From contig JAQVMB010000009.1 of assembly GCA_028703835.1 (NCBI GenBank), positions 1-55,164 on the forward strand: DNA of 55,164 bases. Reading direction: 5' to 3'. Under the pieces are notes generated by a model, which saw nothing but the letters and a program-made list of their open reading frames with translations, was not told the DNA's origin and made no database searches. Every line of letters begins with the position of its first letter. Positions within the stretch are counted from its first letter, which is position 1. The DNA is from Candidatus Peribacteraceae bacterium (GTDB lineage: Bacteria; Patescibacteriota; Gracilibacteria; Peribacterales; Peribacteraceae). A program made the position numbers and the translations under genes. Positions 2,909 to 55,107 of the stretch are shown piece by piece.

Positions 2909-3991
2909 ATGAAAATTGTCTTAGCTACGGGCATTTATCCACCTTCCATCGGCGGTCCCGCCACGTACGTGCGGAAGCTGGCGAATGTGCTCGTGGAACG
3001 GGGCGAAGACGTGACGGTCATAACCTTTGCTCCGCGCGGGCCGTTGCCGCAGGACCCATGGCGCGTGGTCCCGGTGGCGCGGTGGGGCGGGTTCCCTTTC
3101 CGCTGGATCCGGTATGCCCGGGCGTTGCGGCGCGAGGCGAAAGACGCGGACGTCGTCTATGCTTTTTCCGCCGTGAGCGTGGGGATGCCGCTTCTGCTTG
3201 CGCGTTTGCGGAAGCCCCGGAAGGTATTGCGGCTCGGCGGTGATTTTCTCTGGGAGCGCTATACGGATTTGCGCGGCAAGAAAACGCTTCGGGAGTGGTA
3301 TGCCGCCCGTCCTTTCGGCATCGTGTTTTTCGGGCGGCTCCTGCGCACGTTCCATCATGTCGTTTTCAACACCCGGTTCCAGGAACAGCTTTACGAGAAG
3401 GTCTACCCACGGCTCCCCCGTCATTCCGTCATCGAGAATGCCCTTCCCCAGGGGGAACTCCTCCTGCATGCGAAGCATGATCCGCTCCGCATCCTCTTTC
3501 TCGGCCGCTTCGTCCGTTTCAAGAACCTGCGTCCGCTCCTCATGGCCGTCGGCAATCTCCCGCATGTCACGCTGACGCTCGTAGGAGAGGGGCCGGCATC
3601 GAAGGAGCTTTCGCAGATGGCGCTGCGCCTGCGCCTGAAAGGGCGCATCACCTTCCTCCCGCCCGTGCAGGGGGAAGAGAAGGACAAGGTGTTGCGGGAG
3701 CACGACGTGCTCGTCATACCCTCGTTCACCGAAATCAGCCCGCACGCGGCGCTGGAGGCGCGTGCCGGCGGCCTCCCCGTCCTCCTCACGGAGGAGACGG
3801 GACTGGGTGAGGAGCTGCGGCAGGGGATGATCCTGATGCCCCTGCGCACCGCCGAGGAGATCACCCGTGCGATCCTGGAAGTGGAGCACGCGTATCCCGA
3901 CGCCGCCGCCTTCGCCTCTTCGCCGTTCCGGCGTCGGTCGTGGGAAGATGTGACGACGGAGCACCAGGAATTGTTCCGTGTCATCGCATGA
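2909..3991 (+). CDS. Glycosyltransferase family 4
   Basis: GT-B transferase of 360 aa. The N-terminus MKIVLATGIYPPSIGGPATY is the classical GT4 acceptor-domain start with a glycine-rich loop. The donor domain shows LRILFLGRFVRFKNLRPLL, LVGEGPASKEL, ITFLPPVQGEEK and VIPSFTEISPHAALEARAGG, where the last carries the family E-x7-E positions. The first glutamate (EGFG in many GT4 enzymes) is replaced by EISPH, as in some mannosyl- and galactosyltransferases. The donor sugar is not predictable. It is followed by another GT4 with a 4-bp ATGA overlap, so the two are probably translationally coupled. Confidence 0.9.
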   Translation: MKIVLATGIYPPSIGGPATYVRKLANVLVERGEDVTVITFAPRGPLPQDPWRVVPVARWGGFPFRWIRYARALRREAKDADVVYAFSAVSVGMPLLLARLRKPRKVLRLGGDFLWERYTDLRGKKTLREWYAARPFGIVFFGRLLRTFHHVVFNTRFQEQLYEKVYPRLPRHSVIENALPQGELLLHAKHDPLRILFLGRFVRFKNLRPLLMAVGNLPHVTLTLVGEGPASKELSQMALRLRLKGRITFLPPVQGEEKDKVLREHDVLVIPSFTEISPHAALEARAGGLPVLLTEETGLGEELRQGMILMPLRTAEEITRAILEVEHAYPDAAAFASSPFRRRSWEDVTTEHQELFRVIA

Positions 3992-5094
3992 AGCTCCTCA
4001 TGATCTCCGGGGACCGTTCCCTTGCCGCCGGAAAGAAGGCGGCATTCTGGTACACGCTCGAACTGTTGCGGACGCACTTCGAGCGCATCGACATCATCAC
4101 GCCGCAGGCCGCCGATTCCGAACCGCCTCCCCCCTTCGATAATGTCTTCCTCCATCCTTCGCCGCGGGGTTTGCTGCGCCAGCCGGGCTGGATCGTGCGG
4201 AAGGGGCGGGAACTCATCGCGCGCCACGGGCATGGCGTGATGACCGTGCATGAGTATCCGCCGTTCTACAACGGCATCGGCGCGCTCCGGCTTTCGCGGA
4301 AGACGGGCGTGCCCGCGGTGTTGGAAATCCACCATATCGTGGGGAAACCGATTGCTTCTTCCGCGTCGGAACTCGCGGGGAGGGTTCTGTCCCGTCTGTT
4401 CCTGCCTCCGGAGGCGCGCCGGTTCGCCGCCGTCCGGACCGTCAACCAATCCGTGCGGGCGACGCTGATGCACTGGGGGGTGCCGGGCAGGAACATCGCG
4501 GTGGTGCCGTCGTTCTACCTCAACCCCGATGTTCTGGAGCCGGAATGGCTGGCGCCCAAGCTCTACGACTTCGTCTTCTGCGGCCGTCTTGCGCCCAACA
4601 AGGGGCTTTGCCAGACGCTGGATGCCTTGCGCAGGATTCCCGATGCCACGCTCCTCGTCATCGGAGACGGGCCGGAACGGGCCGCGTGCGAGCGCCGGGC
4701 GCGACGGTGGGGGATCGCGGACCGCGTGACGTTCGCGGGGTGGCTGCCGACGCAGGAGGATGTGGTGCGCCACGTGCGGTCGGCGCGGACGTTCATCCTC
4801 CAGTCACGCAGCGAGGGGGGGCCGCGGGTGGCCCTCGAAGCCATGGCCTGCGGTCTTCCGGTGATCGCGACGCCCGTGGGGATCATGCCGGAGGTGATCC
4901 GCAGCGGGGAGAACGGCATCCTCGTCCCCTTCGGGACGGGACCGCTCCTGAGCGCCATGAAGCTGCTCCTCTCGGATACCGCTTTGCGCGGTCGCATCGG
5001 GCATGCTGCGGTGGAGATCGTTGCGCGTTTCGAGCGGCGAAAAGCCATCGCCGCCTACGCCGAATTCCTCACGCTCGTGGGGCACGGGGCGTAG
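3988..5094 (+). CDS. Glycosyltransferase family 4
   Basis: 368-aa GT-B enzyme whose ATG overlaps the stop of the preceding GT4. The N-terminus MKLLMISGDRSLAAGKKAAF starts the first Rossmann fold. The donor domain has DFVFCGRLAPNKGLCQTL, VIGDGPERAACERRA, VTFAGWLPTQEDV and SRSEGGPRVALEAMACGLPV, in which SEGGPRVALE is the donor-phosphate motif. That motif is encoded by a G7 homopolymer at 4815-4821, a potential slippage site. Substrate unknown. No membrane segment or signal peptide is evident. Confidence 0.9.
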   Translation: MKLLMISGDRSLAAGKKAAFWYTLELLRTHFERIDIITPQAADSEPPPPFDNVFLHPSPRGLLRQPGWIVRKGRELIARHGHGVMTVHEYPPFYNGIGALRLSRKTGVPAVLEIHHIVGKPIASSASELAGRVLSRLFLPPEARRFAAVRTVNQSVRATLMHWGVPGRNIAVVPSFYLNPDVLEPEWLAPKLYDFVFCGRLAPNKGLCQTLDALRRIPDATLLVIGDGPERAACERRARRWGIADRVTFAGWLPTQEDVVRHVRSARTFILQSRSEGGPRVALEAMACGLPVIATPVGIMPEVIRSGENGILVPFGTGPLLSAMKLLLSDTALRGRIGHAAVEIVARFERRKAIAAYAEFLTLVGHGA

Positions 5095-53055: not shown

Positions 53056-53061
53056 TATGAT
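53056..53061 (+). promoter_or_regulatory. -10 element, leaderless start of the PolX gene
   Basis: TATGAT at 53056-53061, then seven nt and ATG at 53069. An ATG at 53057 overlaps the hexamer, so 53069 is preferred. Confidence 0.55.
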
Positions 53062-53068
53062 GTTTCTC

Positions 53069-54058
53069 ATGGCAACGCAGCCACAGAGGGAGAAGCGGAT
53101 GGCAATTGGCAACAACAAGAACATCGCCATGCTCCTGCGTCAGATCGGAGCGTTGTTGGACGAGCAGAGCGTGCAGTTCAAGCCCGCCGCGTACCGCAAA
53201 GCGGCGCAGACGGTGGAGGAGCTGCTGCACGATGTGTCCACGTTCAAAACGGAAAAGGAACTGATGGAATTGCCCGGCATCGGTCCTGCCATCGCGGGGA
53301 AGATTTTCGAGTATTTGCAGACGGGGAGGATCAAGACGCTCGATGAGCTGCTCGCGGCGCAGGGCGGCATTTCGCCGGATCTGTTGATGGTGGAGGATTT
53401 GGGTTTTAAGCGCGCGCGGCAGCTGCAGGTCGCGCTCGGCATTCAGACCGTCGCCGATCTCATCAGGGCGGCAGAGGAGGGGAAGTTGCGGCATCTTCCG
53501 CGCTTCTCCGAGTTGATGGAGAAGAAGATTTTGGAAAATGCGAAGCACGTCACGGAGCGGTCGCGGCGGTTTTCCCGGAAGGATGTGGAAGAGGACGTAG
53601 AGACGCTCCTCTCGACGGTGCGGAAGGTTCCCGGCGTCGAGAAGGCTGAAGTGGCAGGGTCGTTCCGGCGTCAGAAGGACACGGTGGGCGACATCGACAT
53701 CCTCGCCGTCGTGAAAGACCGTGAGAAAGTCTCCGATGCCATCGCGCACCTGCCCATCGTCCGGCACGTCGTCGCGCACGGTGAGAAAAAATTGTCATTC
53801 GATCTCACATCGGGACTTCGCGTGGACATTCGGTTCGTCGACGAGGACCAGTGGGGCGCGGCGCTCCTCTACTTCACGGGCGACAAGGAGCACAACATCG
53901 CGCTGCGCAAACGGGCCATCGCGAAGGGGTGGAAGCTGAATGAGTACGGACTCTTCGAAGGGGAGAAGGCGATCGCGAGCAGGAAGGAAGAAAACATCTA
54001 TGCGGTGCTGGGGTTGTCGTTCATGGAGCCCACAAGACGAACGGGGGAGTTGCGTTGA
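53069..54058 (+). CDS. DNA polymerase X family protein without PHP domain
   Basis: 329 aa. Pol-beta-like gap-filling polymerase for repair. N-terminal 8-kDa-like domain with NIAMLLRQIGALLDEQSVQF, helix-hairpin-helix ELPGIGPAIAGKIFEYLQTG (about 67-86) and a second HhH-like LMVEDLGFKRARQLQVALG. The nucleotidyltransferase has AGSFRRQKDTVGDIDIL with Gly197-Ser198 and the metal Asp208 and Asp210, and the third Asp253 in RVDIRFVDED, then the thumb with FTGDKEHNIALRKRAIAKGW. It stops where most bacterial PolX proteins continue into a PHP phosphoesterase, so it lacks that 3'-5' exonuclease. Start chosen by the leaderless rule. Confidence 0.93.
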   Translation: MATQPQREKRMAIGNNKNIAMLLRQIGALLDEQSVQFKPAAYRKAAQTVEELLHDVSTFKTEKELMELPGIGPAIAGKIFEYLQTGRIKTLDELLAAQGGISPDLLMVEDLGFKRARQLQVALGIQTVADLIRAAEEGKLRHLPRFSELMEKKILENAKHVTERSRRFSRKDVEEDVETLLSTVRKVPGVEKAEVAGSFRRQKDTVGDIDILAVVKDREKVSDAIAHLPIVRHVVAHGEKKLSFDLTSGLRVDIRFVDEDQWGAALLYFTGDKEHNIALRKRAIAKGWKLNEYGLFEGEKAIASRKEENIYAVLGLSFMEPTRRTGELR

Positions 54059-54119: not shown

Positions 54120-54284
54120 GTGGCCAAGAAGAAGCCTTTCAGGCCGTCGCAGAGGCTCAGGCGCTGGTTAGAAAATGTGCGCCAGGCTCGCAGTGCGGCG
54201 GCCAAAAAGGGGTGGGAGACGCGCCGTGCGCGTCTGCAATCCCATTCGCGCAAGCGTTGCCCGCAATGCGGGCACACCCTCTAA
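54120..54284 (+). CDS. 54-aa basic protein with C-terminal CPQCGH zinc-type motif (GTG start)
   Basis: GTG start; MAKKKPFRPSQRLRRWLENV begins a strongly basic sequence (many Arg/Lys) and it ends SRKRCPQCGHTL, with Cys47 and Cys50 in a CxxC-GH arrangement. It is preceded by a complete Shine-Dalgarno and followed by a perfect terminator, so it is very likely a real gene that was missed by length cut-offs. Size and charge suggest a ribosome- or nucleic-acid-associated protein; no family is recognised. Confidence 0.75.
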   Translation: MAKKKPFRPSQRLRRWLENVRQARSAAAKKGWETRRARLQSHSRKRCPQCGHTL

Positions 54285-54360: not shown

Positions 54361-54451
54361 GGTGGGATGGCCGAGTGGTCGAAGGCGCGCGACTCGAAAT
54401 CGCGTAAGCCCCAAAAGGGCTTCGAGGGTTCGAATCCCTCTCCCACCGCCA
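54361..54451 (+). tRNA. tRNA-Ser (anticodon CGA)
   Basis: Acceptor GGTGGGA / TCCCACC with G discriminator and encoded CCA. D-arm GCCGAGTGGTCGAAGGC, anticodon stem CGCGA-CTCGAAA-TCGCG (anticodon CGA), a long variable arm AAGCCCCAAAAGGGCTT as expected for class II serine tRNA, and the T-arm GAGGG-TTCGAAT-CCCTC. Length is 91 nt including CCA. Confidence 0.96.
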
Positions 54452-54512
54452 CTGGAAATATGCGCAACAGCCTTGGGAGAAATAATATCTGCGGAAGAGG
54501 GATGAGAAGTTT

Positions 54513-54553: not shown

Positions 54554-54575
54554 GAATCCCTCTCCCACCGCCACT
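54554..54575 (+). repeat. 22-bp direct repeat of the tRNA-Ser 3' end
   Basis: Identical to 54432-54453, covering the T-loop end, acceptor 3' strand, G-CCA and CT. Copies are 122 bp apart. A tRNA 3'-end direct repeat is the classic footprint of site-specific integration (attL/attR), but only 100 bp remain between. Confidence 0.75.
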
Positions 54576-54826: not shown

Positions 54827-54854
54827 TTGCAGAAGCCACTTTCGACCCTACAAT
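54827..54854 (+). promoter_or_regulatory. Promoter of the histone-fold gene
   Basis: TTGCAG (54827-54832), 16-nt spacer, TACAAT (54849-54854). Transcription would begin about 54861, leaving a 25-nt C/T-rich leader without Shine-Dalgarno. Confidence 0.6.
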
Positions 54855-54885
54855 CCCTTTGTTCTTACTTCTTAACCCCCTTTCT

Positions 54886-55056
54886 ATGAGCTACGTCGTT
54901 GCGTCCGCCATCAAGGACCTCCTCAAGAAGCAGGGCATGATGACCGCCGGTGATTTCCCGGAGGCCGCATCCGCCTTCCTCGAGAGCGCACTGAAGGCTG
55001 CCGGAAAGCGCGCCAAGGATAACGGCCGCGTCACGGTCCGCCCGTACGATCTTTGA
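54886..55056 (+). CDS. Bacterial single-histone-fold protein
   Basis: 56 aa. Predicted order is helix 1 (VVASAIKDLLKKQG, about 4-17), loop with MTAGDFPE, long helix 2 (AASAFLESALKAAGKRAKDN, about 27-46) and a loop plus short helix 3 GRVTVRPYDL (47-56). This matches the histone fold: Arg48-x-Thr50 is the paired-loop R-x-T, and Arg48 and Asp55 are seven apart as in the histone R-D clamp (established for archaeal histones). Small, single-fold proteins of this type are known as bacterial histones (for example in Bdellovibrio). Likely dimeric DNA-binding nucleoid protein. Own promoter and terminator, so a monocistronic, probably well expressed gene. Confidence 0.8.
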   Translation: MSYVVASAIKDLLKKQGMMTAGDFPEAASAFLESALKAAGKRAKDNGRVTVRPYDL

Positions 55057-55081: not shown

Positions 55082-55107
55082 GGTGTCCCGTAAGGGGCAC
55101 CTTTTTT
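55082..55107 (+). terminator. Rho-independent terminator of the histone-fold gene
   Basis: GGTGTCCC (55082-55089), GTAA loop, GGGGCACC (55094-55101), then TTTTTT. Confidence 0.88.

Follow-up and report, generated by a model that had tools for sequence, protein, structure and literature searches.

A putative FtF-type histone with a truncated third helix, conserved family-wide beside HU in Candidatus Peribacteraceae

The window analysed here, a stretch of 55,164 nucleotides forming one end of contig C3 in a Candidatus Peribacteria (CPR/Patescibacteria) source genome of 1.34 Mb in 40 contigs, contains at 54886-55056 a reading frame for a 56-residue protein (MSYVVASAIKDLLKKQGMMTAGDFPEAASAFLESALKAAGKRAKDNGRVTVRPYDL; net charge only about +3). 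Sequence searches and a predicted structure confirm this protein as a bacterial histone with a truncated third helix (alpha3), and sequence evidence puts it in the recently described face-to-face (FtF) type (tetrameric, DNA-wrapping) and not in the dimeric type of Bdellovibrio HBb. We consider it likely that this tail-less histone acts as a nucleoid-associated protein, forming tetramers that would wrap DNA and working beside HU. The gene and the features discussed with it are as follows.

54361..54451, forward strand: tRNA-Ser(CGA), conserved upstream neighbour, 435 bp upstream of the histone gene
54829..54834, forward strand: -35-like element CTTGCA, from aligned upstream regions
54852..54857, forward strand: -10-like element TACAAT (mostly TAGAAT in relatives), from aligned upstream regions
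54858..54885, forward strand: pyrimidine-rich 5' leader without Shine-Dalgarno sequence, from 51 orthologous loci
54886..55056, forward strand: alpha3 histone gene, assigned to the FtF type, ATG at 54886 to TGA at 55056, 56 amino acids and stop
55082..55107, forward strand: intrinsic terminator GGTGTCCC-GTAA-GGGGCACC-TTTTTT, a hairpin (55082-55101) with a T-run

That the reading frame is a true gene rather than a product of chance follows from its presence in 55 of the 57 genomes of the window's family and from a dN/dS of ~0.08-0.31 against close relatives. The initial annotation had read it as a bacterial histone and had proposed a profile search against archaeal and bacterial histones. Searched against the PDB, the single sequence matched the Leptospira histone HLp (E 3.1e-6), and a profile of 42 relatives found HLp (1.8e-14), HBb (1.3e-12) and the archaeal FtF histone HTkC (1.8e-10), with weaker matches to archaeal nucleosomal histones. 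An AlphaFold2 model (mean pLDDT 88.9) has the histone arrangement, with two helices predicted (residues 3-15 and 24-45) followed by a single turn of helix at 53-55, and a Foldseek search with this model returned HLp first (TM 0.84), followed by HBb (TM 0.78) and HTkC; predicted fold, structural matches and family-profile matches thus all support the histone reading. In alpha3 histones helix 3 is 3-4 residues long (Schwab et al. 2024, PMC11390915), and membership was judged here by a histone fold with such a helix and a shortened helix 2; in the model helix 3 has three residues, and the top Foldseek matches are themselves alpha3 histones. Among the 42 family members, 29 matched the Pfam archaeal-histone model (E up to 0.1) and 15 the DUF1931 model in the same scan.

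A chance frame, or some other small helical protein such as a ribbon-helix-helix repressor, might be suspected from the scans of the single sequence, which gave no match above cut-off in Pfam, NCBIfam or PHROG and only weak, sub-threshold Pfam and PHROG matches. Such an origin is extremely improbable, and is refuted by the family-wide presence of the gene, purifying selection, and the profile and Foldseek matches to solved histones; no better-fitting small helical family turned up in the family, PHROG or Pfam-of-relatives scans. A match to the silk domain RP1-2 (E 0.008, under the cut-off) is probably compositional. The remark that 56 residues is about as short as the fold allows needs correcting in that this length is normal for the alpha3 class, the protein starting where the ordered part of HLp starts and ending with the one-turn helix 3.

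Fold alone does not tell dimer and FtF types apart, and HBb is a close second by profile (1.3e-12) and by structure (TM 0.78), both of which speak for a dimer-type histone like HBb that would bend DNA as a dimer and never become tetrameric. The HLp tetramer is held by R49, N53 and R55 (Hu et al. 2025, PMC12701072), which, numbering the 56-residue protein as HLp minus 7, become R42, N46 and R48, whilst in the published sequence logo the dimer-dimer contact residues R48 and N52 divide FtF histones from bacterial dimers, which have neither (Schwab et al. 2024, PMC11390915). Residues R42, N46, R48, T50, D55 and K10 are equivalent to HLp R49, N53, R55, T57, D62 and K17 (PMC12701072) and agree with the FtF logo (PMC11390915); the first five are invariant across the 42 aligned relatives, and the helix-1 lysine K10 (K16 in the logo) is at least 90% conserved in alignment A3 and invariant in alignment A1. 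The protein therefore carries the FtF signature, i.e. the dimer-dimer contact pair R and N together with RxTxxxxD, the latter recognised correctly in the initial annotation as an R-x-T with an R-to-D spacing of seven (R48-V-T50 and D55). It is because these residues are invariant, while HBb has S and D at the R42 and N46 positions in the single-sequence search alignment, that the sequences favour the FtF type; HLp also outscores HBb in the single-sequence, profile and structure searches alike, and we consider the dimer-type alternative unlikely. Phage histones, a further alpha3 category, have a C-terminal tetramerisation helix and no RxTxxxD (PMC11390915), whereas the present protein stops at residue 56 and carries the RxT...D motif; its single fold also separates it from DUF1931 pseudodimers, which have two folds per chain.

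Among the DNA contacts listed for HLp (PMC12701072), K17, K21, T27, G29 and T57 are retained as K10, K14, T20, G22 and T50, whereas A8 and V49 stand in the places of K15 and T56. Lysine occupies both positions in most other Peribacteria, so the A8/V49 change is, on the aligned sequences, a trait of the window's subclade, in which DNA binding may be weaker or different because two DNA-contact side chains are lost. Wrapping of DNA (~50-60 bp in the definition of the FtF type) has been shown for HLp only (PMC12701072), and it is from HLp that we infer a tetramer, wrapping and a chromatin role here. Two 56-residue chains would form a histone handshake dimer, and two dimers would be joined at both ends via R42, N46, R48 and the chain end to give a closed tetramer, round the rim of which ~60 bp of DNA would be bound nonspecifically, held by loop-1/loop-2 bridges (T20, G22, T50) and the helix-1 lysines K10 and K14. 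The histone would be transcribed alone, from its own promoter, and would work beside HU. The lost side chains, and the presence of HU as a conventional packing protein, could also suit a histone fold with no general chromatin role, serving local regulation or linking other proteins, a function that DUF1931 pseudodimers may have; this is quite unlikely given that K10, K14, T20, G22, T50 and the RD clamp are conserved, that the gene has its own conserved promoter in a style common to HU, and that in Leptospira related FtF histones are abundant components of chromatin (PMC10627809, PMC12701072). A tetrameric, DNA-wrapping nucleoid protein is the reading we prefer.

The promoter and terminator proposed for the gene in the initial annotation are both borne out. 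A generic sigma-70 scan missed the histone promoter, which was revealed by comparative alignment: CTTGCA, 17 nt and TACAAT, at ~54829-54857, follow a pattern (CTTGC/CTTGA, 17-19 nt, TANAAT-type, 28-35 nt before the ATG) found in 50 of the 51 orthologous loci, where chance alone would give 0.14%. Terminator-like hairpins lie 3' of nearly all copies in relatives. The leader is on average 83% pyrimidine in relatives, no Shine-Dalgarno sequence precedes the histone in any of the 51 loci, and HU genes of the same family (L116-L120) resemble the histone gene in promoter and in their pyrimidine-rich leader, which again is free of Shine-Dalgarno sequences. No near-exact copy of the histone leader occurs elsewhere in the genome; pyrimidine-rich leaders before ATG nonetheless seem common in it, and the leader was accordingly rejected as a histone-specific signal. 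Shine-Dalgarno use among the window's genes, at 15 of 38 against a background of 37%, comes from a crude test with uncertain starts, and a search for an RNA element in the histone transcript was not significant (z -1.24).

Within its family the histone counts as a core gene. Among 288 genomes sampled across the class, 57 of them from this family, it was found outside the family in two genomes of one other family (f5) and in essentially none of the rest, one further match (E 5.5e-4, inside a 335-residue frame) being probably due to chance. G030 and G264, the two family genomes from which it is absent, also have the neighbouring prfB missing or cut, so the locus is missing and the histone is not specifically deleted. 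When 380 genomes from across the phylum were sampled, FtF-type histones sharing these five residues also appeared in families f41, f71 and f34, where a Shine-Dalgarno sequence precedes most of the genes. Close relatives come almost all from records titled Candidatus Peribacteria, Peribacteraceae or Peregrinibacteria; the single matches assigned to Euryarchaeota and to Rokubacteria probably reflect contamination or wrong labels. The genome of the window encodes HU, as do 55 of 59 relatives, and on these grounds a replacement of HU by the histone was rejected. A search for a second histone in the genome (PF00808) gave just a sub-threshold match in a 528-residue frame, and searches of plasmid and phage records found nothing. 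Two viral contigs from IMG/VR, L034 (64 kb; 3968-4162) and L035 (82 kb; 3971-4162), encode FtF-type histones of 64 and 63 residues with the R, N, RxT and D residues, unlike the described phage-histone category; the L034 protein has no relative in 50,697 phage records.

The tRNA-Ser neighbour pointed out in the initial annotation belongs to a conserved synteny of the family, in which the order, with gene names assigned from translated sequences, is tRNA-Ser, histone, convergent prfB, two membrane-like proteins and infC-rpmI-rplT. A tRNA-Ser lies upstream in 44 of 53 histone loci (24 in the same orientation, 20 opposite), its orientation flipping within the family, e.g. in L044, L048 and L078 against L039-L043. 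The tRNA-Ser 3' end recurs 122 bp downstream as an exact direct repeat of 22 nt (54432-54453 and 54554-54575), which resembles the attachment-site scar of an integrated element, and in one relative (L082) a serine-recombinase-like frame adjoins the histone gene. Elsewhere in the window, 53057-54058 encodes a PolX-like DNA polymerase that aligns to the 571-position NCBIfam PolX model over the first ~315 positions only and appears to be without the C-terminal PHP part. At 54120-54284 lies a gene with a good Shine-Dalgarno sequence for a basic protein of 54 residues, whose C-terminus is of the CPQCGH type and for which Pfam and NCBIfam gave no family match above cut-off.

Among characterised histones, HLp of Leptospira perolatii (PDB 9QT0-9QT2) shares the alpha3-truncated fold, the RD clamp, the R, N and R of the tetramer contact, most DNA-contact residues and ~40% identity with the window protein. 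The latter differs in having no N-terminal tail and, in its subclade, alanine and valine where HLp has K15 and T56; HU is present here whereas Leptospira is reported to be without it (PMC12701072), and the neighbours are tRNA-Ser, prfB and infC-rpmI-rplT as opposed to smc and map. HTkC of Thermococcus kodakarensis (PDB 9F2C) is, like the window protein, a tail-less FtF histone of about this length, although archaeal and only 26-27% identical. HBb (Bd0055; Bdellovibrio, PDB 8CMP, 8FVX) has in common the fold, the truncated helix 3 and co-occurrence with HU, but is without the tetramer-contact R and N and bends DNA as a dimer.

Two histone folds per chain, such as occur in DUF1931 pseudodimers (Aq_328, 1R4V; Thermus 1WWI) and archaeal doublets, are found, here of the FtF type, in three genomes of the window's family (L030; L087, with the same protein as L031; L089, with the same protein as L095) and in the f5 genome L025. 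The predicted model of the L087 protein contains two complete folds and matches histone dimers and pseudodimers in Foldseek; the Peribacteria doublets keep RxT...D and most DNA-contact residues, features reportedly absent from DUF1931 proteins. In the tree, L078, a histone with one fold, clusters with both halves of the family doublets (support 99/92), and the f5 doublet falls elsewhere; at least two separate fusions are therefore indicated, although resolution from 56 columns is limited. At the position of R42, the cross-dimer arginine, the three family doublets carry alanine in their first half and R in their second, whilst the f5 doublet keeps R in both; since the first half has no free carboxylate, the pattern would fit an arrangement in which like halves face each other.

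FtF histones have been described as patchy in bacteria, HLp being the first one characterised. The main texts of PMC11390915, PMC10627809 and PMC12701072, whose supplementary tables may list these sequences, make no mention of Patescibacteria or CPR, and full-text literature searches for histones with Patescibacteria or Peregrinibacteria returned nothing relevant; near-universal presence in a CPR family and FtF doublets were thus not found in the main texts examined. What emerges is an FtF-type histone present throughout a lineage, apparently inherited vertically and accompanied by HU in reduced CPR genomes, a natural setting in which to test how a nucleoid is shared between histones and HU. 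The fuller picture, in which this histone and HU together form the core chromatin of the family at least two fusions took place in the class, and the Peribacteraceae doublets would form an asymmetric four-fold ring of two chains with like halves facing, is put forward tentatively, as we judge it to fall somewhat short of an even chance. The natural doublets offer a clean test of tetramer closure, and the doublet ring, if real, would be a new architecture of a DNA-wrapping histone.
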